This document shows, in pieces, positions 2,105 through 57,608 of a DNA stretch of 64,000 nucleotides. Under the pieces are notes generated by a model. It did no database searches and was not told the DNA's origin. It saw nothing but the letters and a program-made list of their open reading frames with translations. How positions within the stretch are numbered: the stretch's first letter is position 1; each line of letters opens with the position of its first letter. A program made the translations under genes and the position numbers. Origin of the DNA: Tetradesmus obliquus (taxonomy: Eukaryota > Chlorophyta > Chlorophyceae > Sphaeropleales > Scenedesmaceae); NCBI GenBank assembly GCA_030272155.1, contig CP126192.1:1708501-1772500 (forward strand). The letters are read 5' to 3'.

Positions 2105-2156
2105 CTAACTCTCCAAGCCCACCACCCTGGCGTTGCACACCCACTGTGCCCAGAGC

Positions 2157-2842
2157 TCATTCGCAGCCAGCGTCCTGCGGCTGCCCACCAGCGCGCGTCA
2201 CGGCCACATTGAGGCTCCGCGCATCAGCCACAAAGCCCAGCCTGCCGCCACTGTTGCAGCGCACAGAGCAGAAGATGATGACGTCCTTCGCACGCCCCTG
2301 CAGCAGTAGAGCAAGCAGCGTTGGTGGCAGCAACAGTGCTTGATGCATGTAGGTACAGATAATAATGCATGTGGCATACTGTCACGGTTCCAAGCAGATA
2401 GTGCCTCCAATGTGTCGCCCCAAACATTTCTCATGCACCATGCTGACCATCATGGCTGGTGACATGTACTGCAACGGCACACTTCAGGGTCATGAAACTG
2501 TCCTCATGCTACAGCTGCGCAGGGCAAGCTGATGCAAGCCTGCAGGGCTGTCGCAGGTTGTTCCAGCTTGTTGACCAACCACTGCTTGCCATGACCCGCT
2601 GGTTCATTGGCAGCACAATGATGACACGGCGTGTGTTGCAGCTACCATGTCCATCATTGATTGTTTTGGTGATAGATTGGTCCCATCCAGAGTGTATGCA
2701 CATGCTCTAGAAGCACCTGGAATGCGTCCACTGTGTTGACCTCCACCTCCCCTGCACCTGGCACCCGGGCCATCACACTGCGCAGCTCCTGCACCATGGC
2801 TTTATAGGGTGTGATGATGCCAATGCCCCTGGCCACCAGTAC

Positions 2843-2875
<33 letters not shown>

Positions 2876-5800
2876 GCTGCCGTCGCCTTTTGGGCTGAGC
2901 AGTTGCCGCAGGAGTTGATCCACAGCCTGTGCTTCGTCTCTGTTGAGCCAGCTGGAGCCTGCTGCATTTTCTCTGCCCTCAACATCGACGAGGGAGATGC
3001 CGGGCTGCAGGCAGGGCCCCAGTGTGGGGCAGGACTGTACAGTACAGCAAGAGCGACACACGCACAACCCATTTGATACCTTTTGATGCTGCAGCCAATG
3101 TTGATCTGATTTTCAGGTTCAGGTGCAATTGACAGTGTCAAGCTTGTGCCGGGAAACTGAGAAACACTCTTCCAGCATGTCTCACCTGGTTACTGTAGTG
3201 GGTGTCCAGCAGTCCTCCATAGAAGCAGCTGGAGGGCAGTGCTGCTATGCCTGGGTGCATGCGGTACTGCGTGGTGAGCATGTGCGGCTCTGCAGCCCCA
3301 CACGCCAGCAGCCGCTCAAACGACTCCTGCGCGTACAGACAGCAAGTGCGCGAGTCTCTGAGAGCATCTGAAGGGTGCACAATGCTGCAGAGGCGTGACT
3401 ACCAGAGGGCGCGCATTCAACAGGACGGTGCAACAACAGCAGCACATGCTTATAGCATACAGCAGCAGCCAACAGGGCGCATCTGACTGCTCGTGTTTGG
3501 CCATGACCATGATGTGTGGTCTGGGTACAGCATTTCAAGTAAGTGAGTGGAAGTCCAACAGTTGTAGAAGAAGAACACTGCTTGTCACTCGCAGTTGCCC
3601 TCTACTACATGCCGCAAAGTGACACCACATATCGGTTGCGTGTCGGAGTCACTCTCACTTTCAGGCCAAATTCCTCAGTTGCTGCGCTAACGCAGGGCCC
3701 CAGCTGTTTGTGGTCGCCAACCAGCACCAGCTGCTGCGCCGGCCCCAGCAGCACCGGCAGCAGGCAGCAGGGCTCCAGCACCCGCAGGTGGCGCAACCAT
3801 ATTCGTGCAGAAGCAGCATTTTTGTAAGGCACACGTGCTCAGCACACAGTGTGGGCACTTTAAGGCATGCCGTGACAGCGCCAGAGTGCACACAGAATAT
3901 GTTGCGTATGGCATGCTCCCACCTGCCGCCATGCACACTGCATGCATCCTGCTGCATGCACCAGGGTAGGCGGGTTCCCGCACCAAACACTGTGGCACGG
4001 CGCGACAGTGTCCACTTTGGTGCTTCTGTGTCGCAGCCGATGCATTGGGTTGAACGTCTGCAACACGAGATGACCCTCACCTGCGTTGCCTCATCCACAA
4101 TAACGGTGCTGAACTGGATGCCTGCTGCCTGCAGGATGCTGGCGCCAGCAGCAGCGCAAGTAGCGAACACCACGCGCTTGCTTGCCAGCTCAGCTCGCAC
4201 TTTCTTCATGTCCAGGAAGCCAGCTGCGTTGGTCAGCTTATCACCAAGGGCGTCGAGCGTGCAGCTGCAGCAGGCAATGAAATAGCAGCCGGCAGCACAC
4301 ATCATACAAAGCAACGTCCCTGCCGTAGCTTGCGGGAGTCTCTGAGTACCACAGTACTTGTCTCAAGACATACTCAGCCGTATTAGGCATATTATAGACT
4401 TTAAAAGTCGATGCTTACATGCGGCACCACAAAAGTGCATGATGATGATGATGAGTTGAAACTCGCATCTATGTGCATTTTGAAAATGTGTCAGCCCGCT
4501 ACTGCAACGCCATCTTTACATGAAGTAGCTGCCCTCAAATGACAGCTGAGTTTAATTGCATCACTAAACAAGAGTCTTATAGATATCAGACTTGCAAAGC
4601 TTGAGCCCAGGCCAAACCCCATGCTAAACTGTTGTAACATCAGAAAAAATGCAAAGTGAGTTGTGGCAACGTGCACTGTTCTGTCACGCGGTACCTCCTC
4701 AGCTCTGGAGACACCCTCCCCACATCGCCGATGCGCAGCAGCTGCGCTGTCTCAACCCTCAGCCCTGACGTTCCGTGACTGGCCTCCCCTCCAGCAGCAG
4801 CAGCCCCAGCAGTTTTGCCAGATGCAATCAGCTTGGCAAGTATGTTGTCTGTCGCTGTGTGCGTCTCAGCACACACCATGGGGTTGCTGCTGCGGGTGCC
4901 TCCCTGCTGCTGGCACAGCATGACGCGCAGCAGCTGCACAATGGTGTGCGTCTGCATGCAACCGGCAGCAGCACAAGTTGTTCATTGCGTCAGGAGATGT
5001 CCTGGTGTCTGCACAAATTTGCTTCAAAAGTATGCAATTTTTATGTCAATAATTTCAATGTATAATGTCTAAATCGCCAGGCACGCATTTGGTATGCAGG
5101 TTTTGCTGTGCTTCTGTCCAAGGCAAGCAAGTTCACATCGCAGGCTACAAGCTCCAGTGCGGACATGTGTAAAGTGGGCACCACACCGCAGACTGCAACC
5201 ACCCGAGAGCCTTTTGAGTGACCCTCAACCCACCTTGCCAGTGCCTGGCGGGCCCCATATCAGCGCCAGCCGCTGCTGTGCAGCTGCTTTGACCGCAGCC
5301 TCCTGGGCTGCATTCTGCGCCCCACCTGGCACAGCCTGCAGCTGTGCATCGCTCACTCCACCCTGCACCAATTTCTGCGCAACAGCCTGCTCCCCGGCAG
5401 CCTTCAGCTGCTGCACAAATGCATCAGCATCTGCTTCACCAACAGACATGCACAAATGCATCAGCATCTGCTTCACCAACAGACATGCACAAATGCATCA
5501 GCATCTGCTTCACCAACAGACATGCACCTTCTGTCCTGTTGCCACTGCCAGCTGGCTGTGATGATGTGCTGCAGAACTCGGTCAGGTGCTGCACTTGCTG
5601 CCCCAATGGCAGCTGCATGATAAGTACTGCCGCCGGAAGCCAGTGCCGGGAGCCCCTCAAGGCAGCGCTTGTATGTCGTCAGGTTGCCCAGGCACTGCAG
5701 CTGCCACAGCTGATCTGCGAGGCCCACGGGCTGCCATGGCAGCTCAACCACCACACCTGCCACGCTTGAACCCCTGTCCAGCTGCACCACGACACCTTCC

Positions 5801-6046
5801 ACGCTGAACCTGCTGTCAAGCAGCTGTGTTGCATCGGCTGCCTGGCTGGCCAGCCTCACCAGATCTCCCACCTGCAGCTGCGATGCTGCACCGCCCACGC
5901 TGAATGTTACAGTGCAAGGCAGATGCAGCTGCAACTTCACCTCAGCAGCAGCGTCAGCAGCTTCCTCACTGCTGGCGAACTGTTTTGTTTCTTCTTCTTT
6001 TCCTGCCGCTTCTTCTGCTTCTTCCTTGCTTTTTTCTTCTCCTTCA

Positions 6047-6102
<56 letters not shown>

Positions 6103-6300
6103 GCCTGCGCCTGCTCCTGCTGTGGCGCTGACGGCAGCGGAGACCCGCACAGCCCTGGCATTGAAGATGCCGCTGCACCTACTGCCTTGGCCGCCAGCTG
6201 CCGGCCCACCAAGCCTGCCCCCACCCTGCGACAGCTGCCGCGCTAGTGGCTGCATGCCCTGCCGGCCAGCTGCAGCTGCTATGTGGTGCGATAGCAGTAC

Positions 6301-6356
<56 letters not shown>

Positions 6357-6985
6357 GCAAGCCAGCTGTTGCTGGTTGATCTGCTGCAGAGGTTGAGCTG
6401 CTGTGCAGCTCCTGCAACATTTCCATTGTTAGTGCATGGCTGAAATGTAGCTGGTAGCTGCGTGCTGCAGGGGTCCCTGTCAGTGCTGTATTGTGCTGCT
6501 GCTGTGCAGCAGCAGCCGCATTGTCTCTTGCTTGTGCTGCTGCTGCTGCTGCTGCTGCTGCAGCCGCAATGCAAGGGAGCAGTACACATTCGGCTTCCTC
6601 TCTGTTGGGACACTGTGTTACAACTGCCTGCATGAGCTCTGCCACCCTTGCTGGAGACCACACGAAGGAGGGGCTAGCCAGCAGGTGCCGCAGAACGGGG
6701 CCTACAGCAAGCATGCCAGCATCGCACGGTGCACAGGTTGCCGTCCAGGGGGGTTCAATTGCCACGCGTGAATGATAGCCATGCTGTGCAATAGAATGAG
6801 GTGTATTGGAATGCACGGCTGTGCTGATTGCACCTGCTGGAGCACTGTGTGCCTCACCTGCAAGCTCTGGGGCGCTGCCAGCGCTCCTCATCACAGCCAG
6901 CACCAGCTCAAGCAGCACGCCATCTGTGCAGCTGCTGAGCACATCTGCAGCACCCTGTTCGGCATGCTGCTGCTGCTGTGGCAGC

Positions 6986-7018
<33 letters not shown>

Positions 7019-7142
7019 AGCAGATATGCCCACACGGTGAACACCATGCCAGGACAGCAGCGCAGGATGCCAGTGATGCTGCACATGCGCACTGCTTCAG
7101 TTACAACTGCAGCAGCTCTCACGCGGATGCTTGAGGTGTGCT

Positions 7143-7173
<31 letters not shown>

Positions 7174-8834
7174 TTGCAGTAGCAGGAGGTGCGTCAGCCT
7201 GTTGGCAGCACCTTGATCATGCAGCCGGGCTGCGCATGTGAACAGTGCTGCCCAGGTGCAGGGCCACTGCTGCCGCATTGCTGATGCTGCACGCACATCG
7301 CTGCAGCCACAGACCTGCGTGCAAGATCACAATAGTACCCAGCAAAACATGGGAGGTGACAAGTTGCACATGTGTTGATGTGCAGCAGAGCAGTGAAGGC
7401 GGTTGCTGGCAGCCAGTGCATCCAGCTGTCAGGCATGCATGAAGTGCAGGATGCTGCAGCATGTGCCCAGCACCGGGACCGCTGATGCATGCAGTCATGT
7501 TGCAGAGCTAATGTAAACTTCACATCCTGGCATAGCATTTGTAAAACAGTCTAGCTTCATCAAAGGCTGCTGCTACGTGGTTTGATAACCAAGAAGCACT
7601 TAACATGCAACTAGCATTGCCCACACTGACTGCAAACTGTGCACGGCCTCCAACTCACAGCAGCACAGAGAGCCACGGCTGCTTCCAGCAGATCACCGTT
7701 AGCCCAGGAGACCAGCAGCTCATGCACAGCACTTGCTGCATCGGCTGTTGACAGAGACGGCCGTTGCTGCTTGTGCTGCTGCTGCTGCTGCTGCTGCTGC
7801 CCAGTGGCAGCTGCTGTACAGCTAGCGCCCAGCATCAGGTGCACATGACCATTTGCTGATGCTACCGCAGATGGGGGCTTGCCCCTTCCAAGCGCGCTGC
7901 GAGGCCAAGCCTGTACAGCAGCATTGGCAACCGGCTTTGGACCTCTAGCTGCTGCAGATGCTGGCACTGCAGCATCAACTGCTGGTGTAATCATGCTGCA
8001 GGCACCGGGCAGCAGCTGCAGCAGCCGATCTGCCTCAGCTAACTGTTCCTCACTCAGCTGCCTACCAGCTGATACCAAGCAGCAGCTGCTTCTGGCTGTG
8101 CTGCTGCTGCTGCCAGTGGGTGAAGCATAGAAAGACTCCCAGGTGCCTGGCAGCTCCAGGGAAGGCAGCTGCAACTGCTCACAGCTGGCCGCATAGAGCT
8201 CGTAGCGGCTGACTGGGACTTTGGTGGTCTTGCTGTAGTGTGTGAAGGACTTGGTGGGCTCAAACCTGAGCACATCTACACTGAGCTGCAGCTGGTTCAG
8301 ATGCAGAGAGCTAGCACTGCTTCTGCTGCTGATCCTGCTGCCGTTGCTAAGCCCATTCCTGCTGCTGCTGCTGCTGTTGCTGGGAGATCTGCCTGAACCT
8401 TGCTGACCATGGTGCAGTGACTGCTGTGCATGCAGTGAAGAGGCACCTTGATGTGATCGCTTATGCTGCTGCTGCTGCTGCTGCTGCTGTCCAAGAATGC
8501 TCCTCTGGTTTGACACTAGAGACTGCTGCTGCTGCTGCTGCTGCATGCGTGCAGTCATCACAGGAGACCTGACCAGCCGCAGCCAGAGGTATGAATTGGC
8601 TCTGCTGCTGGGGTCATCCAATGCAGGGGCCTGCCCCGGGTGCAGCCTGCGTGGCCTGTAAATCTGCAGCCGCTGCTCACTGCTATCAAGGTCAATGTTC
8701 TGTCCTGACAGGAGCTGCTTCCTGCTGAAGCCATCCACGCCAAAGGCCCATGTGATGGCTGACAGCTGCTGGCCGTCAGAACGGTGCGTAGCACACGGGT
8801 ACAGGCCATCGCCTGTGAGCAGCAGTAAATCCAT
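2157..8834 (-). CDS. UPF1-like superfamily 1 RNA helicase (possibly the C-terminal half of an RdRP-helicase fusion)
   Basis: Nine exons can be joined with consistent phase: 8834-7659, 7314-5514, 5430-5234, 4951-4677, 4264-4081, 3772-3659, 3326-3186, 3034-2717 and 2297-2157, giving 1,449 codons. The 4677 donor and 3772 acceptor are less certain. SF1 motifs run in order: Walker A GPPGTGK at the end of exon 3, VCAETHTATDN, VDEATQ (Walker B), LVLVGDHKQLGP, TTQYRMHP, VDAFQGRAKDVIIF and SLNVAVTRA. A weak UPF1 1B-like barrel precedes Walker A (SFxVGGAA...VGDLVRLA). The first 700 residues are mostly S-, Q- and A-rich. Start: ATG 8834 is the first in frame, but the frame is open further upstream to an acceptor at 8874-8879, so this may be an internal exon. 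The intron at 7315-7658 shows nothing else. Closest family sense is UPF1/SMUBP2/Hrr1/ZNFX1; no CH zinc domain of true UPF1 was seen. Motif VI is damaged (see findings). Confidence 0.85.
5412..5527. repeat. 37-bp tandem repeat, three copies, over an exon-intron boundary of the helicase gene
   Basis: Three exact copies start at 5412, 5449 and 5486, followed by five bases of a fourth. On the minus strand each copy holds a GTGAAG donor-like site and a GAAGCAG acceptor-like site. With a single copy the coding frame would read straight through; the two extra copies (74 bp) break it. An 83-nt GT-AG intron at 5431-5513 restores the frame. Confidence 0.9.
6048..6101. repeat. (CTG)18 microsatellite, polyalanine in the helicase gene
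   Basis: Eighteen CTG units. On the minus strand they are read as GCA codons and give a long alanine run followed by a charged EGEEKSKEE segment. Confidence 0.95.
6302..6355. repeat. (CTG)18 microsatellite, polyserine in the helicase gene
   Basis: Eighteen CTG units. On the minus strand they are read as AGC codons and give a serine run in the same exon where the 6048-6101 tract gives alanine. Confidence 0.95.
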
Positions 8835-9009
8835 GCAGGCAGGACAGTAAACACAAACACAGAGCCTGGGCAGCTGCAGTAAGTGTTTGTGTTGTTTGGA
8901 TTGCTGCGTGCTGCGACAAGCTCTGCTTTTGGCATCGCCTCCTGCAACAGCTCTGTGTGCATCACGTCACTCGGTAGCTCGGGAGATGGCATGGTGCTGG
9001 CAGCTGCGC

Positions 9010-12000
9010 TCAATGCACGGGCCGACTAGCCTGCATTGGCCTGCAATGTGGTATCTGCTGCAAACTTGCCTCGACTTCCATGCTGTCCAACTTCAGTAAC
9101 GCAGCTGCAGCTGTTGGAACACTGCGATGGAAGTACACCAGTAAGCAAGCTGTTTGCTGACCTGGGTGCTGGTGAGGCAGGTACAGCGCGATGGTCTGCG
9201 GTGGGTCGTGGCACTGCAGCAGCAGCAGCTTCTTGGTGAACTTGGTGGCTGCAGTGTGCAGCTGCTGCCAGCTGCGCTCACTTGTCACAGCGCCTGCAGG
9301 AGGGCAGCACCCAACAGCACAAGGAGTAATGTGAGCAACAAGCTGTGCCTGGCTCTGCAGGCTGTACAGCTGCACAACTGAGCGTTCTTGCTACCTGCTG
9401 TCAGCATTGCAAAGGCAAAAAAGCAGCAGCAAAGCACACATACTCATCTCATTGTACAGCAGTCCCAACACACAGACACCAAACAGCGCTTTCAGCCAGC
9501 AGATGTAGTGTGGCAGCCCCACCTGCGTCAAACAGCCTCCAGGGCAGCTGCCCCACGTCTCCCAACTGGCTGACCTGGTGGCTTGACAGCAGCTGGCTGC
9601 GCACCAGGTCGTTGAACACCAGCTCACGCGGCACGCCAGCGGAAATGGCATACTCACACTGCAGGCGCAGGCACACACAGTTTGTCCTTTGACACACATG
9701 ACTAGGTAAGTCAATCTGGGCTGTAACGTAATCTACATGTGTGATGGTGGTGATCACCGCGTGTAGCATGACCTGGGATGCTGTCTGCCCACTGGTGAGC
9801 TGAGTATGTATGTTTGGAGGTCCATGCAGTGCACGCATACTGTGCCTTTCCAGCTTCCTGTCTGCTAGCTGGCTTGCCCAAACACCACAAAACCATCACC
9901 ATCAGCACCCCGCTGAGCTTTCATACTGTTCCAGCCGTGCCTGCGTTAGCCTCAAACGGAAGTCTGAACCATTTGCCGACTGTTACCAGGCGCATGAGCT
10001 GGGGCTACGCCAGCGCACCTGCTCTGGTGTCAGCGCTGCAAAGTCGATGTTGTCAACCAGCTGCAGCAGCGCCACGCCAGCAGACGCGCCATGCTGCTGC
10101 TGCCAGCTGACAGCCAACCGCAGCAGGTCAAACTCCGTGGCTCCGACATCCCTGCTGTCAAGCAGGTCCATCATGTCGTCAAAAGACAGGCCGCAGGTGA
10201 TAGCAGACACGCCGCTGCCGCTGCTGCTGCTGCCTGACAGGCCACGCTGATACGATGCTCGTACAAAGCTTGAGGCGCGCTCTTTCAGCTGCAGCCAGAT
10301 GGATGCAGGCTTTGCTGCCCTGCTGCTGCTGCTGCTGCTGCTGGGCTTTGGCCCTGCTTCTGCTGCTTCTAGTGATGGTGGTGGTGATGCTGCAGCTGCG
10401 GCCTTGGGCAATTTGAGCCACAGCGGAATAACTGCCTTGGCGCCCGACTTGACCGAGTCCACACCCCTTGAGAACAGCCTTGCCAGCTCGACACACTCAG
10501 GGCTGCTGGGACTTTCAGCTCCGCCCTGGCCATGTAGCAGCTGCAGGGCCACAGCAGAGGCGGGCGCATTCGGGGCAGAGGTTACACTCAGCTGTTACCC
10601 AAGCCCAGTTGGCATGATGGCAGTCTGCTGAAGCCACCATTGGTGCAAGGAAAGAAAGAAAACTGCACCAGAAGAACGCAAGGCACTCACGAGTTCAGGC
10701 GCCCAAGAATGAAGGGGTCATACTGAGCAAAGTACTCGATGAGGGCCCCGTGGTCCACAGCAGCAGCTGCAGGCGCTGCAGGGTCTGCATCTGCTGAGTA
10801 ATCCAGCGGCTGCTGCAGCTGGTGCTTGGAGGGGACGAGGCGCTCGTCCCAGCATATGAAAAACTGGTCGCCATCGTAGTCGCCTGCGTAGATGCAGCGA
10901 GCAGCGCCACACACAGGAGGTAAGTGTGTAGGAGCGCTTGTGTCTAGCGCGTGGTGGTGTTTGGCCTCCTGCATGTCAGCGCACACCACTTGGAGATGGC
11001 AAGAATTGAGGCACAGAGCTGCAATCTTTGACCTTGTGGGTAGACGTAACGAGCATCTTTACAAATACTACAGCCTTTTGTCGATGTTCTCACTTCAGGA
11101 TGTGAGCATGCAATGTGATGCAAATTGGAATTTCAGCAGCAGGTGGCTTGAAAGCAGGGCTTGTAATGCTAGCAGCTACGCCTGCTGCATACGTATGCAC
11201 TCACAAGGACCCACGACCCACATACAACTATTTTCGACAAGCAGGCCTGACTTGTGCAATCATCACCACCACGCGCACCTCCGGAGCACTCGTCAGCATG
11301 GGGGCGGGGCCCCTGCACGGGCAGCACCAGCACATCCTGCAGCTGCCGCAGCTGAGGCACGTCCAGCAGCTGCAGCACCCGCAAGTCACCAGGGAAGTAG
11401 GAGGGGCTGCGCGCCTGCAGCAACAAAGACGGATCATTGCATGCCAGCATTGCTGCTGCTGTTTGCTGCAGGCTACAGCAGGTGAACGTGCCGCAGAGAG
11501 GGATGCAAGCAACAGGGAGCCGAAACACCACAAATACGAGTCTATTTGTGACACTGCTTGGCAACACGCCTGGGGTTGCAGTGCTGTGCAGCCGAGTTCT
11601 CACCACCAGCGCAAAGCCTTGCAAAGATGTTGCAGCCCCGTCCATCGTTGGCTGAAAGAAGGCCTGCCCGTACTCCAGCAGCCCGCTTGGGTCAGGTATC
11701 CCGAAAGCCAGACGGGACTGTGGGACCCTAAAGCGCAGCCTCACATCAGGCAGCTGCGACAACTGCTGCTGCAACTCCAGGCCATCTGTGTCAAATGAAG
11801 ATGGGACTGTCTTGCTGCTGCTGCATGGCGCGCTGCCTGTCCGGCTGATGCCTGTGTTGCTGCTGCTGGTGCTGCTGCTGGTGCTGCTGCTTGGTGCACT
11901 GACTGCACGGCTGATGCCTGTACCGCTGCTGCTTGGCGCGCTGACTGCCATGCTGGCTTTGCTGCCGTTCCGCGCGTTGCTGCTGCGGCTTGAAACGCTC

Positions 12001-13135
12001 TGCTGCTGTGCTGGGGTTGCTGGTACGTCCAGCCTGGGAGCAACGGCTGACTCGGCTGCCACGGCAGCAGCTGGGCTCGTGCGTTTTGGCTTGCTTTTAA
12101 CGCATGCCCTCACCTCCCTGCTGTAGATGCGCTGCATGTGGCTCATGACGGCAGGCGGCAGGCTGGAGTCATCAGGCAGGCAGGCCACCGCCTCTGCTTC
12201 TTTGTACTGCACACAAGATGCACAGACAGTTGTCAGCAGCAACAACAGCAGCAGCAGCAGGGGCAGCAGAAGCACCAATTGCATGGACAAGAGCAGCAGC
12301 AGCAGCAGCAGCACACCTGCAGGAACAACTTCACACCTTCCTCCTCATACATGCACAACATGAGCGCGTAGCGCCGTGAGTTGCAGTGCTAGCTGCAGCA
12401 GCCAAAGCTGTTGGTGGCAGATGTGCGGCAACCTTGTTGCCTCCAGCCAGGAGCTGCTTGCACAGCAGATAAGCCACCTGCACTCACCTTCTCGTCCATC
12501 AGCAGGTAACGTGTTGCCACTGACGCATCGCTGCACAGGCCTTCAAGCTCGCGGAAGTACTCTGCCTGCTGCTGCAGCAGCACATCATCAGGCACGCCCA
12601 GCGCTGACAGCAGCAGCACAAACTGCTGGTTCAGGAACCCAACCTTGTAGGGCAGGCTGACGGCCACAAGGCCTAGCGTTGCGTCAGACACGCCCCCAAC
12701 CTTGCGCATGGATTTGCGCAGCAGCAGGTCGCAGTCAGCAACAGTGGCGAGGTCCATGCCTGCTGCAGTTGCTGCTGCAGCCATGTAGGCGCCATCTGGT
12801 GTGTCGATGTGCACAACTCCCTTGTAGCCTTTGTAGCGGATCTGCATGGCAGCGGTGGCCAATGTGCAGCATCCGTTCAGCAGCCAAGATGGCATTGAAC
12901 ACAGCTGTGCCCTGAGCACTTTGGACAACATGAGCAGAATGCGACTAGGCATCCCTGGAGACAGGCTTAGCTGTAGCAGGTGCAGGGACACTGCCTGTAT
13001 GACCGCGAACATCATGCTACACTCATCAGCATTAGATCAGCTAACCAGTCCACTGCAGCCAGTGGACGCAGCAGCGCATATGCAGCGCCATGAGCTGTCG
13101 ACTGACCGTGTGAGGTGTCATACGCCACAGCAGCC

Positions 13136-13174
<39 letters not shown>

Positions 13175-14535
13175 CTGCTCATCACCTGGTACACGCTTGG
13201 CAGGTAGGTCTTGTCGTGCAGGGTGATCTTGCCCCTGCTGGCCATGACGCGCCGCGCGCAGTGCTGGCTGATGATGCCGCAGCCATCAGTGAAGGTGGAG
13301 CCGCCAGCCTCAATGTCCCCCACCTCCACTGCATTGATGGTGGGCTGCCCGCCACTGCTGCCGCTGTTGCTGCTGCTGCTGTTGCTGCGCTCAGTTGTGT
13401 CCAGGCTGATCGGGCTCACACCTGCAGACAAGCATATAAGGAGCAAAACATAGCACAGTGGATGTCAGGAGGAAAGTGCGGTCGAGGACCAGCCTGAAAG
13501 TTGCTGTGGCAGGCGTTTCCTGTGAGACAAGCGTATACGCTTGTCTCACCAGCACGACTATGTAGTCGTGCTGGTGAAAGTTGTGCATAGTTGTGCAAGC
13601 AGTGTAACCATCACGCCTGGCTGCTGAGATAGGATGCCCTGGTCAGCTGACGGCAGCCCGTGAATCAACAACATGGCCCTGTGCACTGACACCACGGTGC
13701 AGGCTGCCCAGGCACCTGAGAACATCAGGCCGATGCGCTTGTACATCTTGGCAGCCGACCCAATGCTGCCAAAGTCTCCCCAGCTGAGCAGCAGCTGCCA
13801 GGCCTGCTCTGGTGAGCTGCAGCGGTACAGCACCGCCACGCGCTCCCGCAGCTGCCCCGCGCTGGACCCTACAAAGTAGTAGTGCTCCCCATTGATGATG
13901 ACGCCTTGAGAAAGCACCTGCACATCAGGTGGCAATTTATCTGTTTGCATTTGCATAGACGTGCACGTGGCTTGGTCGATCGTCAAATCGCCAGACGGAC
14001 TCAGTTGCATGCCTGGCTGTGAGTTGGCGAAGCTTACCCTGACACAAAGCTCCAGACAACACACAAACCAGTTGGCACATCAGAGCCACCTTCAGCCACA
14101 TCTGCATTTAACCACTTCTGAAAGGTGCTTGCCACTGTCACCTGCGCTTCACCTGCTTGATGTACTGAGGTGCCTCTCGGGCCTGCTCCCAGCTGTCATG
14201 GTGGAGCTGGCTGAAGTTGATGGTGAGGAAGTTTTGCTGCCCATGCAGCAGCCGCAGCCGGCTGGACTGCTTCTGCAGTGGCTGCTGTGCCATGCTTGGA
14301 TGGCTGTCTGGTCACCAGCGCCGCTGCCGCTGCCCTCAGCATCCTTGACTATGTCCAGCTGCAGAGTGTTGCTATTCACCACTGTGATGCTGCTGCAGCG
14401 CAGTCCACCAGCAGTGGCAGTTGCTGGCCACCTGGCCACACTGCCGGTTGCTTCTTCAGGCAGTTGTACTTTCAGCAGCCCATGTGCCTGTGCTGTGATG
14501 ACATGCGCATCAGTAGGTGCTGCTGCTGCTGCTGC
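9010..14535 (-). CDS. Cellular RNA-dependent RNA polymerase of the RNAi type (RdRP, PF05183)
   Basis: Exons from 5' to 3': an N-terminal exon region 14535-14153 (internal structure unresolved), 13917 to about 13680, 13421-13186, 12841-12488, 12206-11604, 11414-11279, 10883-10691, 10586-10019, 9658-9523, 9293-9076. Signatures in order: GVIINGEHYYFVGSSAGQLR, KMYKRIGLMFSG, FTDGCGIIS, LPSVYQ|IRYKGYKGVV, LRKSMRK, FLNQQFVLLLSALGV, FGIPDPSGLLEYGQAFFQ, RSPSYFPGDLRVL, RPHADECSG|GDYDGDQFFICWDE (catalytic DYDGD at 10867-10881), and ECVELARLFSRGVDSVKSG. These are the double-psi barrel motifs of eukaryotic RdRPs that copy RNA into dsRNA for silencing; this is not a viral polymerase. A further 300 residues of C-terminal extension follow. 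In a two-gene reading the frame stops at 9010; otherwise it splices at 9076 to 8873. The phase between the 13917 and 13421 exons, and the start codon, are unresolved. Confidence 0.9.
13137..13172. repeat. (CAG)12 tract at the 3' edge of an RdRP exon
   Basis: Twelve CAG units just inside the intron after the exon ending at 13186. They are removed if the donor at 13185-13180 is used. Confidence 0.9.
13522..13577. repeat. Two overlapping perfect inverted repeats in an RdRP intron
   Basis: The first is a perfect 28-bp palindrome at 13522-13549 with half-site GTGAGACAAGCGTA. The second has 15-bp arms at 13546-13560 and 13563-13577 around a 2-nt loop, with arm core CAGCACGACTA. They share four bases. 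No coding function is apparent; the site falls in the intron between the exons ending near 13680 and starting at 13421. Confidence 0.9.
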
Positions 14536-49199: not shown

Positions 49200-50311
49200 A
49201 TGGAGGCAGAGCAGGAGAATGTCAAGGTGGAGATTCAGCTTGCTGCTAGGGACTCGAACACCCGCAAGCTAGTCAGCCAGATGGGCAAGCGACACAAATG
49301 GGTAGCCACAGATATCAGGTAAGCAGCATGAGGCGCCGCAGAGCCCGTGAAGTAGCGATCCTGGCCCTCCCCAGCTCCCCAGCTTGCCCAGCTACCCTGT
49401 CAGTGCAACAGCATGCGCCTGTACTGCTGCGTTGTGTGGCTGTTTAGCAGCTTAGCAGACCGATACATCGAGTGTAGCAGCATATTTTTCACCCCTAAAG
49501 GCTGCATGGCCCTATCACATGGGTGCTCCAGCAACAATGCCATTACGCCCTCCCCGCACCAAGCCTGCATGCTGTGTGCACTGTGGACCCGTACCTTCAG
49601 CACGAGCCGGCAAGTGCTGTCGGTCGCCAGCATCATCCTGCGCAACCTGGGCGTGGACTCACAGCACCAGGTCATCCTGTACCCCGACATAAGGGTGCAC
49701 AGCCACCTCAAGTTCACGCCGATCAGCTGGGGCCCCACCTTTGACCCAACGCTGCCGGTGAGCACGAGCACAGATGCTGCATGCCAACAACAGCCTGTGC
49801 TCATGCGGTTCATAACCCACACACTTGCACAGTACTCTGGACAATCGCAGTTGGTGCCACAGCAACTGCTGAGCAAGGCGGTGCCTGGGCTGCGGCCAGT
49901 GATTGTGAGCACGTTGGCGCCCTGCTGGCTGGCGCTGGGAGCTTTCCTGGCTTCTCTCCTCGCGCTGTTATTGCATGTGTTCTCCCGTCAACAATGTGCC
50001 GTCCTGCCTTACACCTGCTGCTGCTGTGCTCGCAGCTGCGCGACCTGCACAAGATCTTTGGCTGCCCGGCCAAGCTGCACTTCCTGTACCACCTCATCAC
50101 CCCGGAGGTGATGTCGCCGCCAGCCAAGGCGCCGCCGCGCCTGCAGGGCCTGCAGCAGCAGGCCGGCCAGGGCGGCGAGCAGCAGCTGCAGCCGCGGCAG
50201 CTGCACTTCGCACAGGGCACAGGCAGCAGCCAGCAGCAGCAGCAGCCGGCAGGAGTGCAGCAGCAGCAGCAGCAGCAACAGCAGGTGCTGCAACAGCCTC
50301 AGCCAGAGCCC

Positions 50312-50345
<34 letters not shown>

Positions 50346-50841
50346 CAGTGAGCGTTGCACATGGTCAAGCAGCAGCTTGGTCTGCTCCTGGCTGGCAGCA
50401 GCAGCAGCAGCCTCCGGCATGTCAGCTGCCGCCATCAACAGGCGCCATGTGGCAGCAGCAGCTGCAGTACCACCAGCACGCAGCTCATGCAGAGACGCAA
50501 CAACAGCAGCAGCAGCAGCAGCTGCAGCAGCTTGGTTTGCAATCACAGCAGCTGCCACACAGCCAGCAGGGCTGTCACCTGCAGCAGCAGCAGCAGCAGC
50601 AGCAGCAGCACTTGCCCCTCAGGCAATTGCATGACAACATGCAGCAGCAAAACTGGGTGGGCGCTGGCGCACAGCAATTGCAAGGTAGCAGGTGCGAAGC
50701 TGCAGCTGCAGGCCAGCAGCACTTCCCACCACATAGTATGCAGCAGCAGCAACAAGGCCTGTCAGAACAGCTGCAGTTCAACCAGCAGCAGCTGCATCTG
50801 GTTGTACAACAGCCATCATTGCTACCAAGACAGGAGCAGCC

Positions 50842-50884
<43 letters not shown>

Positions 50885-50966
50885 CAGCATCAGCAGCAAG
50901 CAGGCATGCCGACGGCTGCCCCTCAGCCTGGACTGCAGCCGCGTGCACCAGAGCACCAGACTGATG

Positions 50967-51004
<38 letters not shown>

Positions 51005-52092
51005 GATCCACACATAGCTGACCAGGCGGGTTCCTGGGGCATCAACACATGGAATGGCCAGCAGCAGCCCAACAGCAACGGTGATATGCGGGAGCAGCTT
51101 CAACAGCAGCAGCTGCGCCACCACTACCAGCAGCAACAGCAAGAGCAGCAGCAGTGTGTGTCGCACCAGTCGTCTCAGCACAGCTGTGGGCACATGCAGC
51201 AGCAACAGCCACAGCCACAGCCGCAGCAGCACCAGTGCGCGCCTGCAGGAGCCGCACAGCAAGGACTGCAGGCATGGCCTCAGCAGCAGCAACAAGTGCG
51301 GCAGCAGCACCAGCAGCAGCATACATGGAGCCTTGCCATGCACTCGAGCACAGCTGGCGGCAGCCCCTTTGCGCCTGCTGGTGCAGCTGTGGTCCAGGTG
51401 CAACCGCCAGCATCTCTGGGGTTGGTAATGCAGCAGCAGCAGCTACTGCCATCACAGCAGCAGCAGCAACTGCCACAACAGCAGCAGCAACTGCCACAAC
51501 AGCAGCAGCAGCAGCACCATGATGCGGGCCTGGCACAGTCACAGCAGCATCATCATCAGCAGCAACAAGCACAGCAGCAGCTGCAGCAGCCGCGGCAGCG
51601 AGACAGCCAGCCTGGTCAGTCAGGCCAGCAGCAGCAGGAGCAGGAGCAGGCAACAGACCAGCCCCAACTTCCTCAGCAGGCAGGATCTCAGCAGCAGCTT
51701 GGCAGCCGTCTTGAGCACCCGCCAGCAGCAGCAGCAGCGCCAGCGCCGCCACCCGGCCAGGCCACAGTGCGGCTTGCAGTGCAGGCTGCTGACGGCAGCA
51801 CCATAGAGCTGCCGCTGCTGTGCAGCACTGAGGGCGGGCGGCTGGTGCTGATGCCTGACCTGGGCATGCAGCAGCAGCTGCAGCAGCAGCTGCAGGCGCA
51901 GCAGCAGCAGGGCCTGCAGCCGTCCACACAGCTGCTGACGCTGCTGCAAACCTTGCAGGCTGCCGCTGCGCCTGCTGCCACCCAGGCAGCAGCTAGAAAT
52001 GCAGCTCAGGCGGTCAGTGATCCTGCCCGGCCAACAGCAGCCGCAGCTGCTTCGCAGCAGCAACTAGGCGATGGGCAAGAGCACCTGCCATT

Positions 52093-52146
<54 letters not shown>

Positions 52147-52625
52147 CATGTCAGCCACAGTACGCTCAGGCATGCAGCCGCAGTGTCAGCAGCAGCTGCC
52201 TCCAGCGTCACATCAACAGCTGCTGTTCCAGCCCCATCAGCAGCTCCCTCTGTCTGCAGCATTCGACCATCACCAGCCACAAGGGCTGCCTGCATCAGTG
52301 CACATGGAGCCGCAACAGCAACAGCAGCTACAACAGCACCACCAGCAGCAACACCTGCATCACTACCAGCAGCAGCACCACCAGCAGCAGCACGGGGACA
52401 GACTGGTGCTGCACGAGCTGCCAGTAGCACAGCAGAGCGCAGGGCCTTGCAGCGGAGGCGCTGCGGCAGTCTCAGCAGCAGCACTGTCTGGCTGTGCTGC
52501 GGTCAGCAGCGCAGGCGGCACCTCAGCAGCGGCGTCACCTGCGCTGCAGGCTGCCGCCTCGCCTGCTGGCGACCTGCGCTCGCACTGCAGCTCTGTCAGC
52601 TGCGGAGGAGGCGCCAGCGGCGGCT

Positions 52626-52659
<34 letters not shown>

Positions 52660-53328
52660 TGGATTGCCAGCTGCAATGCAGCGGCACAGGCTGGCTGCTC
52701 AGGCTGGCTGTGGCCCAGCAGCAGGTGGTGATGCAGCGAGGCGTGGTGAGGCGTGCCAGGTCATTGCTGGCGGCAGCGGCAGTGCCACACGCACCTCGCA
52801 GGGCCGGCGGCTGGCGGCAGACGCTGCAGATGCTACCGCTGCTGCTGCTGCTGCTGCTGAGCAGCAAGGATGGCACTGTGAGCCGCAGCCACAGGAGCAG
52901 CAGCAGCAGCACTCGCGCCGCACCAGTGACGCGGGCGTGGGCGTGCTGCAGCCGCGGCAGCTGCAGCTGCAGCATGCGCTGCCGCCCAGCAGGCAGCAGC
53001 TGCAGCAGCAGCTGCAGGATGGCGGCGGCCCGCTGCAGTGGCGGCCGGCGCTGCAGTCCATCCTGGAGCAGGAGGGCAGCAGGGACTCCGTGCCCAGCGC
53101 CTCACCCCCAGCCAGCACAGGGCCGGGCACCTTGCCTGCTGCTGCTGCTGCTGCTGCTGGCCTGCAGGGGCACGCGCTAGCTGCATTAGCAGGCATGTCA
53201 GCGGGCGTGTCAGCAGGCATGTCAGCAGGCGTGTCAGCAGGGCAGGGCACCACGTGTGGGGATGGCGGCGTGTCAGGCGCGCTCGAGCTGCAGCTGGATG
53301 ATGAGGCCTGCTGCCCCGGCATGCAGGC

Positions 53329-53362
<34 letters not shown>

Positions 53363-56300
53363 GATGTGGCTGGCCTGCCGAGCGCCGTCAGCTTGAGTGC
53401 TGCTGTTGGGGAGGACCCTGCGGGCCGTGGTGGTGCTGGTGGCGCTGCTGAGGGTGATGCAGCTGGTGCAGCTGACGGCAGCTTTGAGGACTACTGCAAT
53501 GACGATGATGGGTTTGGTGATGATGGCGAGTACGATGATGCGGGGATTCCTAGCCCCAGCCCTCAGCAGCAACACCACCAGCAGCAGCAACAGCAGCAGC
53601 CTGGGCTTGGTGACTCATACCACCAGCAGCAACAGCAGCAGCGGCAGCAGCAGCAGGCATGCCTTGTTGAGCCACCCGCCCGGCAGCAGCTCAGTGCGCA
53701 GGCCCTGCAGGACCAACAGGCACTGCAGCAGCACAGCCAGCAGCACAGCCAGCAGCACAGCCAGCAGCACAGCCAGCAGCACAGCCAGCAGCCGGGCGGT
53801 TCTGCACAGCAGCACAGCCAGCAGCAGCAGCAGCAGCAGCACCCCAGTGAGGTGCGCAGCTTGCAGAGCCCCGCCAGCCACCACAGCGCAGCCCACTCCA
53901 AGCAGCAGCAACAGCAGCAACAGCAGTGGCAGCAGCAGCAGCAGCAGCCGGTGGTGAGCAGCAGCACAGCGGCTGACTCGCTCGCTGCTGCCAGCCCAGC
54001 TGACAGTGCTGCACGGGGTAGCAGCAAGCGCGGGCATGGCCAGCTGCAGCAGCAGGGCCTCGGCGCTGCGCCAAGCCAGCAGCCTGCTGCTGCTGGCAGC
54101 ATGCAAGGCATGCCAGGCCATCAGCTGGCATCATCCGCCATGGGGCCGCCAAGCGGCGGCGGGCTGGGCGGCATGCAGCCACCCAGCAAGCGGCCAGCCC
54201 TCAGCAAGGCTGCTGCTGCTGCTGCTGCAGGCAGGCCCGCAGCACCCGGCAAGCCTGGCAGGCGGCGCAACAGCATCAGCAGCGCCGCCGGCGGCTATGG
54301 CGGCTCCTACCCGTGCTTCCAGTACCCGCCGGGGCAGTACCCGCGGGTGGCCTCAGGCCTGGTGCTGCCTGGCGAGGCGCAGCTGGGCCTGCCCAGCATC
54401 ATCAGCAGCGGGGCCAGTGCACGCGGCACTTGGCACGCCAGCACCGGCGGCTGGGACAACCGGCTGGAGCAGACGCCGCTGAAGCCGGATGAGATGGGCG
54501 TGGGCAGCATCTTCTCCGTGGCGGAGCTGATGAAACAACAGCAGCAGCAGCAGGGTGCCAAGCAGCGGGCCGCGGCTGCACCAGCAGCTGGCAGCAAGCG
54601 AGGCCTGGCTGGGCCAGCAGCTGGCAGCGGGCGGCAGCCCAAGCAGAGCCGCACAGGCAGAGAGCCGTCGCCTGGTGCTGCTGCTGCTGCTGCTGCTGAT
54701 GGCGGAGCTGTGTCTGCTGGCGGCCCCTGCTCGCAGCCTGGCTCGACCAGCCTAGGCGGCTGGTGTGAAGGCGCGACAGCTGCCACAGCCACTGGTGCAG
54801 CTGGCGGCGGCTCTGCTCCCACCAGCACAGCCGGAGTGGCTGGCTCAGCGGCAGGTGCTGCTGCTGGCGAGGCTGAGGTGGGCTGCCAGCAGCATGCTGC
54901 TGCTGCTGCTGATGACGCTGATGCAGTGCTGGCAGAAATCGACAGGGTAGTGGCAGAGGCTGAGCAGGCTGAGCAGGCGGCTGCAGCTGCAGCAGGATCA
55001 AGGCAGCAGGCTGAGGCCAAGCAGCAGCAGCAGCAGCAGCAGCCCAAGCAGCAGCAGCTGCCCAAGCAGCAGCAGCTGCCCAAGCAGCAGCAGCAACAGC
55101 AGCAGCAGCAGAGTGGTCGCTGGCCTGGCTTCCAGGCAGCAGCAGCACCCAGCGAGGGCGGCACACCAGACTGCGTGCTGCCAGACTTGACAGCTGGTGC
55201 TGCTGCTGCTGTGCGCCCGTCAAGCGCTGGGCGCACCCCTGAGGTGCACGGCGACGCCCTAGACATTGACACAGCAGGGCTGGATGCGGTGCTGAATGCA
55301 CAGTCGCTGCTGGACCTGGAGCATGCCCAGGAGCGGCAGCAGCAGCAGCAAGGCCGGCCAGCAGGCAGTGCCGGGGCTGGGCCAGCTGGCGGCATCAGCA
55401 TGCACGATGCGCTGAAGGCGGCTGGCATCCTGCCACCCTCACAAGAGCCCGGCAGTGTGCAGCAGCAGCAGCAGCAGCAGCAGGCAGGTTACTGCCAGCA
55501 GCAGCCATTCTATGGAGGCCCACTGCCTGTGCCAGACGGCGCTGAAGTGGCTGATGACGGCCTACTGCTCGGGCCGCCTGCCGAGCAGCACGGCGCTGGC
55601 GTTGCTGCAGCGGCAGCAGCGCAGACCAGCGCCAGCACGGGCAGCGGCAGCGAGCCTGCCGCGGCAGCTGCTGCTGCCAGCGGCGGCGGCAGCAGCGCGC
55701 CAGCACGCCGCAGCGCGCGCCGCGCCGCAGCTGCAGCTGCGACTCCGGCTTCCTCTGGGGGTGCTGTGAGCGGCGGCGAGTGCTCTGCGGGAGAGGTTGG
55801 GCAGAGCCGCAAGCCTAAGGGCAAGGGCAGCAAGCACACCTTCAAGTGCAGGGCGCCGCTGCCATCGCTGCAGGAGACGCTCATCTTGTCCGCGCAGGCG
55901 CAGGCGAATGCAGGAGTGCCGCTTGGGCCGAGCAGGGCGCCACTGCCGCCCCCACCGTCAGTGCTGCAGCGCGTGACAATGTCAGATGGCAATGTCGTGT
56001 TTGTCGCTGGAGCACGGCCAGGGGCAGCAGCAACACAGCAGAGCAGGCAGCAGCAGCAGGCAACTGCAATGGCGATGTCACAGCTGCCACTGTTGCCACA
56101 GCAGGTGCTGCAGCAACAGCAGCAGCAGCTGCTGCAGCTGCAAGCGCTGCACCAGCAGTTGGCTGCTGCAGCTGCTGTTGGCGCTTCAGGCAATGCTGGC
56201 AGCACAGCACCAGCACCAGCAGCAGCAGGCTCCAGTACTCCTGGCTTGATGGCACCACCGCCACCTCCAGCGGCCGCAAGTGCTGCAGCAGCAGCAGCAC

Positions 56301-57608
56301 CAGGAGGTGTCTCACCCGCCCAGCTGGCTGCAGCACTGAGCAACGTCGCCAGCAGCGCAGCCGCGGCTGGCACCACAGCAGTTGGCAGCACGCCTGCTGC
56401 CGCCACGCCTGCTCATGGCGCTGGTGTTTCGCGGCCGCAGTCTGCTCAGCCAGGCACAGGATTAGCTGGCCTCATCACGCCCGGCTTCATGTCACCCAGT
56501 GGGCTCTTCTCGCCTGGCGCTGGCGTTGGCGGCGCATGCGGCACTGGTGTTGGATTGGGCAGCGGCGGCATGCAGACCACTGACTGCCTTGAGGCGCTGC
56601 TGGCTGACTCTAATCTGATGGGTCTGTTGTCTCCAGGTGAGACTGGCTGCTGCTTGATACCTGGTTGGCTGTGTCCTGATGCGTTGCAGGGAGTGCGTGC
56701 GACTGGATGCAGCAGTTATGTCCAGGCACCAGGTGCAGGAGCCTGGGATGTGACTTGCTGAGCATGTGTGCGTGTGTGTGCGCGCGGCGTTCCAACATAA
56801 GGCACAAGGAATTTTGAGTTGTTGGCAGCGAGCAGCTTGTAGATATTTGTAGGAGAGTTGCCATCACTGCTGTCACTCTGAACTCTGCTGTTGCTTGATC
56901 TGCCGCGTGTGTCGCGCCTGCAGCCAAGACCGGCAGCCTGTTCCTGTTCAACAGCAGCACGCTGGGCGGCCTCAGCTGCCTCACCAGCCCCTCACACATC
57001 CTGTGCAGCCCGGCGCCTGCTGCGGCAGCCGCAGCACAGCACGACCGCAGCCAGCAGCAGCTGCAGCAGCAGGGCGGTGAGCCAGCAGCCGCTGCGGCTG
57101 CCGCTGCGGGTCTGGGCAGGGCAGCCAGCGGCACCGACTTCCACCACCTCTTCCAGGCCTTCAGGGAGGGTGCCAGTGGCGATGCAGCTGCTGCAGGGCA
57201 GGGCACAACCGCAGCTGCTGCTGGTGTAGCAGCAGCAGCAGTGGCAGGGGCCGCTGGTGATGACGCTGGCTCAGGGCCAGCTGACCAGCAGCAGCAGCTG
57301 GATGGCCAGGATGGCCAGGTGGGGGAGCTGTGCCAGTTCCTGCTGGGCAGCGGCAGCGACAGCTGGCTGGCGCCGCCTGCAAGAGCGCCTGCAGGCGCAG
57401 CAGCAGCGGCTGCGGCGCTGGGCGCTGCGACTGGGGCGGCAGCAGCTGCAGCTGCAGCAGCAGCTGCTGCAGCAGCAGCACCTACGGGCAAGCCCAGCAG
57501 GAAGGGGGCCAAGGGCGCTGCCAAGCAGCAGGGAGCAGCCGCTGGCACTGACAGGAGCCAGGCGAGGCGAGCTGCTGCTCCAGCTGGCGCTGCTGATGGC
57601 AGCAGCTT

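Follow-up and report, generated by a model that had tools for sequence, protein, structure and literature searches.

Does a green alga carry an RNA-dependent RNA polymerase (RdRP) and a UPF1-like helicase of superfamily 1 (SF1) in one gene, or do two genes stand side by side? The question is raised by a locus in a 64,000-nucleotide stretch of the Tetradesmus obliquus genome (contig 2, positions 1708501-1772500; the genome comprises 104.66 Mb in 17 contigs), which is referred to here as the window and to which coordinates refer unless a contig is named. The initial annotation, made from the sequence, had placed the two reading frames head to tail on the minus strand, and profile searches bear this out (PF05183, 307.7 bits, E 2.4e-91, curated cut-off 23.8; AAA_12, 140.2 bits, E 8e-41). 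With a probability of about 0.72, we read the locus as one minus-strand gene, spanning roughly 2.1 to 14.3 kb of the window, that is predicted to encode, or to have recently encoded, an RdRP followed by a long linker and a UPF1-like SF1 helicase. Such a fusion had been proposed, and it is likely, but on grounds other than the splice and the zinc knuckle then named: published RdRP proteins carry the same extra domain, the gap of 175 bp between the two frames is far under the usual spacing in two other green algae, and a helicase match lies near only this one of three RdRP places in the genome (among the matches listed and the open reading frames, ORFs, read nearby).

The locus was modelled as 21 exons separated by 20 GT-AG introns, open from RdRP to helicase between 14293 and 2157 (minus strand) and comprising 2272 residues with the revised junction (2315 in the first version). 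In 21 of 21 exons the frame of the model is the top-scoring one, at 0.10 to 0.35 bits per codon, under a three-periodic coding model that was trained on 65 long ORFs (predicted only) out of 304 kb with the locus itself held out. The splice matrices were derived from 16 other introns of the same locus, and several acceptors in the gene model are weak. The Pfam scan covered four pieces of the model, some low-complexity stretches being left out.

The polymerase and the helicase

9162..14293, minus strand: RdRP half, 11 modelled exons (PF05183 and coding frame)
14293-14153, 13917-13716, 13421-13186, 12841-12488, 12388-12317, 12206-11604, minus strand: RdRP exons of the gene model
11414-11279, 10883-10691, 10511-10019, 9658-9523, 9293-9162, minus strand: RdRP exons, continued
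10867..10881, minus strand: catalytic motif DYDGD of the RdRP, read in the model frame
2157..5430, minus strand: UPF1-like SF1 helicase core with GPPGTGKT, DEATQ, GDHKQLGP, QYRMHPG, VDAFQGR and NVAVTRA (Pfam and PDB)

The RdRP was modelled from 14293 onward, and the modelled start is its putative N-terminus. The DxDGD signature of eukaryotic RdRPs is present as DYDGD inside CSGGDYDGDQFF, and in a PDB search the RdRP scored 131.9 bits against a plant-type RDR and 57 to 65 bits (best 64.9) against entries for QDE-1. The genome holds at least three RdRP places, the window included, among the matches listed in a profile search; the others are G000:C2:2738253-2741502 and G000:C10:2050192-2050365. 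For the first of these, at 2.74 Mb on contig 2, the plant-type RDR gives 134.6 bits and QDE-1 entries give 24 to 27, with a query that differs in length from the RdRP of the window, and by its predicted sequence it resembles plant RDRs. Within a modelled RdRP intron, at 13522-13576, two perfect palindromes with 14-bp arms each lie side by side, as judged by eye.

The helicase piece also matches AAA_11 (120.1 bits, E 1.8e-34), and its PDB alignment to UPF1 extends from motif I through motif VI. Human UPF1 scores 153.1 bits, yeast NAM7 about 142 to 144, SMUBP-2 and SEN1 114 to 120, and ZNFX1, for which one chain sequence is in the list, 57.5. The four pieces scanned with Pfam, less the low-complexity stretches, gave no match to the NFX1-type zinc fingers that are a feature of ZNFX1. 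It had been suggested, by way of Hrr1 and ZNFX1, that the locus might represent a built-in RNA-directed RNA polymerase complex (RDRC). Since UPF1 outscores ZNFX1, an Hrr1-type helicase is not supported; the helicase appears by sequence to be UPF1-like, orthology to Hrr1 or ZNFX1 is not supported, and the comparison stands as an analogy only. Fission yeast Hrr1, together with its RdRP and Cid12, and nematode ZNFX-1 are described as instances of an RdRP cooperating with an SF1 helicase (PMC9276528), but these helicases are proteins separate from the RdRP, and the algal helicase is nearer to UPF1 than to ZNFX1.

Published proteins with both domains

The protein Fgrdrp5 (FGSG_09076) of Fusarium graminearum is described as having an RdRP domain, a DEXDc domain at 1277-1478 and the AAA domain PF13087, which is AAA_12, at 1475-1677, and its deletion reduced ascospore discharge (PMC11237814). 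The RdRP domain would come first in this protein and the other two would together form a UPF1-like helicase, the authors' own terms being DEAD-like and AAA. By domain description, and with the order in Fgrdrp5 so understood, the algal locus is alike in having an RdRP and a helicase with AAA_12 on one strand, RdRP first; the host of Fgrdrp5, unlike that of the algal locus, is a fungus. The amphioxus protein BL02069 is listed as an RdRP with an AAA_12 domain (PMC6396948) and is likewise similar, by domain description only, in that a eukaryotic RdRP carries this extra domain, but its host is an animal. An RdRP with an AAA_12-type helicase is therefore already known from a fungus and from amphioxus, and the algal case is not the first; among the matches listed in the open-licence literature, no RdRP-UPF1-like helicase fusion was found in an alga. 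A different architecture is reported from Dictyostelium, oomycetes, Hydra and Nematostella, in which a DEAD-box helicase and an RdRP share one chain, as they would at the algal locus (PMC4791657; PMC3661229). There, however, the DEAD-box helicase is N-terminal, as stated for the oomycete protein, whereas the algal helicase, in the model starting at 14293, is C-terminal, UPF1-like and of SF1 type rather than an N-terminal DEAD-box helicase of superfamily 2.

The junction

8813..9161, minus strand: top-ranked candidate intron, CAG/GTCAGC ... CACAG/GC, phase 1, with an alternative acceptor at 8942 (splice and coding score)
7659..8812, minus strand: exon, RdRP C-terminal extension or helicase N-terminus, 0.21 bits per codon in frame
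5514..7314, minus strand: exons 7314-6858 and 6701-5514 ahead of the helicase, containing long runs of H, Q, A and S (gene model and coding score)

The stop of the RdRP frame at 9010, the ATG of the helicase frame at 8834 and the 175 bp between them are as first annotated. The splice from 9076 to 8873 that was proposed to join the frames does exist, is in frame and free of stops and yields CVYCPACMD, but it is no better than chance. With donors at 9290-9013, acceptors at 9100-8701 and introns of at least 50 nt, 107 joins cross the junction in frame without a stop, and when these are ranked by coding, donor and acceptor scores added together, the join 9161/8813 comes first (32.2 bits), 9161/8942 second (31.6 bits) and 9076/8873 twelfth (26.2 bits). 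We infer a single mRNA that uses donor 9161 with acceptor 8813 or 8942. A self-written gene finder settled for two passes on the exon edges 9162/8812, but it ran adjacent genes together and did not converge afterwards, and it was given no weight.

Read in the helicase frame, the segment 8939-8814, which contains CVYCPAC, yields -0.14 bits per codon; no in-frame exon window out of 79 was as low, whereas 54 of 145 intron windows reached or exceeded that value. Fixed-frame sliding scores place the onset of coding signal at about 8810-8840, and the 35 codons following 8813 score 0.23 bits per codon, which is exon-like. The low score of 8939-8814 and the position of this onset imply that the ATG at 8834 and the CPAC motif probably lie in non-coding sequence; the stronger acceptor at 8942 (6.3 bits) leaves room for another reading. 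A zinc knuckle formed by CPAC and PCATH is thus not supported, as its CPAC half falls in sequence without coding signal, though the join 9161/8942 would retain it. Structure prediction near the junction (8094-8939) gave a mean pLDDT of 38.6 and no reliable fold. The ATG at 8834 has T at -3, not the A or G reported for the green algae Chlamydomonas and Auxenochlorella, and does have the G that is favoured after the ATG (PMC11291117).

Exon 7659..8812 has no second match elsewhere in the genome and no Pfam family above cut-off (scanned from 8941 onward, its low-complexity end left out), and a PDB search with the RdRP tail and the next exon returned nothing significant (best E 1.1). The part of this exon at 8812-8100 may be like the C-terminal part of mushroom RdRPs.

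In Scenedesmus, UGUAA is reported in 66.4% of 3' ends (PMC1868727). Between 9010 and 7106 the minus strand contains no TGTAA. This pentamer was not enriched at 17 sampled ORF ends of the alga, being present within 400 nt at 3 of 17 (mean of its other permutations 2.6) and within 800 nt at 5 of 17 (mean 4.4); it occurs behind two of three light-harvesting complex (LHC) gene ends, within 701 bp. The chlorophyll-binding family, PF00504, has 52 matches in the genome.

One gene, a decaying gene or two genes

The features of the helicase frame that enter into this comparison are the following.

2105..2191, minus strand: likely helicase C-terminus in the other frame, LVGSRRTLAANELWAQWVCNARVVGLES and then a stop (change of frame in the coding signal)
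5415..5525, minus strand: perfect 37-bp unit in three tandem copies, adding 74 nt, in the helicase coding region (sequence)
3773..3787, minus strand: start of the exon after DEATQ, with CTGCGG at 3787-3782 and the modelled AG 9 nt downstream (sequence and inference)

A number of observations weigh against a single, intact fused gene. Of 1000 dinucleotide-preserving shuffles of the 349-bp candidate intron, 484 gave a join at least as good as the best real one; the splice signals are therefore neutral on fusion, and with 107 joins to choose from the existence of an in-frame splice was rejected as a proof of it. Acceptor 8813 is weak, its 1.3 bits lying under 15 of 16 leave-one-out values. No TGTAA poly(A) signal was found on the minus strand over about 3.1 kb past the helicase stop, ending some 1 kb beyond the left edge of the window, and no relative carrying the RdRP-helicase locus was found in the viral, phage and genome contig collections. 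The second core domain of the helicase is not complete in frame after motif VI, as a stop occurs at 2157 soon after NVAVTRA; the 37-bp triplication shifts the frame unless it is removed, for example as the 83-nt intron of the model; and a frame break near 10517, if real, would perhaps truncate the protein ahead of the helicase.

These last observations raise the possibility, to be held tentatively and compatible with a fusion, that the fused gene is now decaying, its helicase half and perhaps its RdRP being inactive. Past NVAVTRA the coding signal switches to another frame, which encodes LVGSRRTLAANELWAQWV, and when both frames are bridged by X the AAA_12 match ends at profile position 194 instead of 184 (of 195) and scores 149.8 bits instead of 145.2; the 28 residues of 2105..2191 by themselves gave no profile match. 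In the exon after DEATQ the acceptor AG is absent where VLEPCCLLP and the usual spacing, judged by eye against UPF1, would be kept, the letters at that point being CTGCGG. Near 10517 the RdRP stretches CYMARAELK and SPECVELARLF, which by eye both fit adjoining parts of the plant-type RDR, do not share one frame. Decay would account for these places and for the 74 nt added by the triplication, but over 2000 codons otherwise remain open and carry coding signal, the two frames near 10517 are nearly equal in score (0.05 and 0.07 bits per codon), and assembly base errors or splicing may explain part of what is seen, the 83-nt intron lying in the repeat and the frame problem near 10517 being bypassed in the gene model via a weak AG at 10512. 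The four damaged-looking places may be base errors, unusual splicing or decay, and present activity is uncertain in view of the apparent damage to the frame at motif VI, at the triplication and perhaps in the RdRP. The triplication, taken on its own, is possibly a new intron, a length polymorphism or an assembly fault.

That the locus consists of two separate genes, an RdRP ending at 9010 and a helicase starting from the ATG at 8834 under a promoter of its own within the gap, is unlikely. Such an arrangement needs no splice, its two parts collect 9.1 and 14.6 coding bits against 24.1 for the fused frame before splice scores are added, and the best fused join is, as noted, at chance level, all of which counts in its favour. 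It would, however, compress a 3' UTR, a promoter and a 5' UTR into 175 bp, whereas the median spacing of collinear monocistronic ORFs is given as 3415 nt in Chlamydomonas and 2518 nt in Auxenochlorella (PMC11291117). Moreover, read-through of the RdRP frame at 9159-9013 scores just 0.01 bits per codon, a value as low in 1 of 59 coding windows and as high in 11 of 120 intron windows. Nor does a TGTAA poly(A) signal follow the RdRP stop down to 7106, although one is equally missing behind the helicase. A gap this short suggests either a fusion or a bicistronic mRNA, and one bicistronic mRNA with two ORFs, as occurs in green algae, is very improbable: the gap of 175 nt is near the median of 183 nt for ORF spacing in bicistronic loci of Chlamydomonas (40 nt in Auxenochlorella), but in such loci the first ORF, with a median of 357 nt, is bypassed by leaky scanning past few start codons before the second (PMC11291117), whereas the modelled RdRP ORF is at least 2698 nt long and has 40 ATGs over all frames, 16 of them in frame.

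Searches for relatives and genome context

The proposed fused gene was sought elsewhere without a counterpart being seen. The viral contig collection held no relatives of the RdRP (one contig retrieved has phage-like ORFs) and a single short match, of 22 residues, to the helicase; no relatives of the locus were found among phage genomes. A first search of the genome contig collection gave no relatives, and a later one gave two RdRP loci in NYXK01, a metagenome-assembled genome titled Deltaproteobacteria, where the RdRP matches are confined to two contigs (L045 and L046) and AAA_12 is found on two others. The two RdRP contigs are alike in their listed ORFs and fungal-looking, and are probably contamination.

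Elsewhere in the window, a single open frame of 2338 codons at 49745-56758 (plus strand) has a strong coding score of 775 bits. Telomere repeats of the TTTAGGG type were seen, among the matches listed, at both ends of contig 1, the right end of contig 2 and the left end of contig 3; next to a telomere, at G000:C1:1170-4753, the telomere motif recurs every 889 bp in what is likely a subtelomeric satellite. The type of these telomere repeats and the matches to PF00504 are in keeping with a green alga.

Implications of a probable fused enzyme

If the two halves do form one protein, its RdRP would make double-stranded RNA from single-stranded templates for use in small-RNA silencing, and the helicase attached to it would travel 5' to 3' along the same template, stripping away protein and structure; alternatively, the helicase might deliver the RdRP to the 3' end of the template. 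What is new is the probable spread of the RdRP-helicase architecture to a green alga, an extension that is known here from sequence and whose interest is limited by the damaged frame. A fusion, if true, would mean that a green alga shares this architecture with a fungus and an animal, and it would offer a way to measure, within one protein, how the helicase affects the copying of RNA. It is conceivable, though we would not favour it, that the RdRP and UPF1-like helicase of green alga, fungus and amphioxus represent one ancient fused enzyme that was later split or lost in most lineages, and this would then have been an old one-piece amplifier of small-RNA silencing. A true fusion in the alga would allow a test of whether silencing RdRP and helicase formed one protein early in the eukaryotes.

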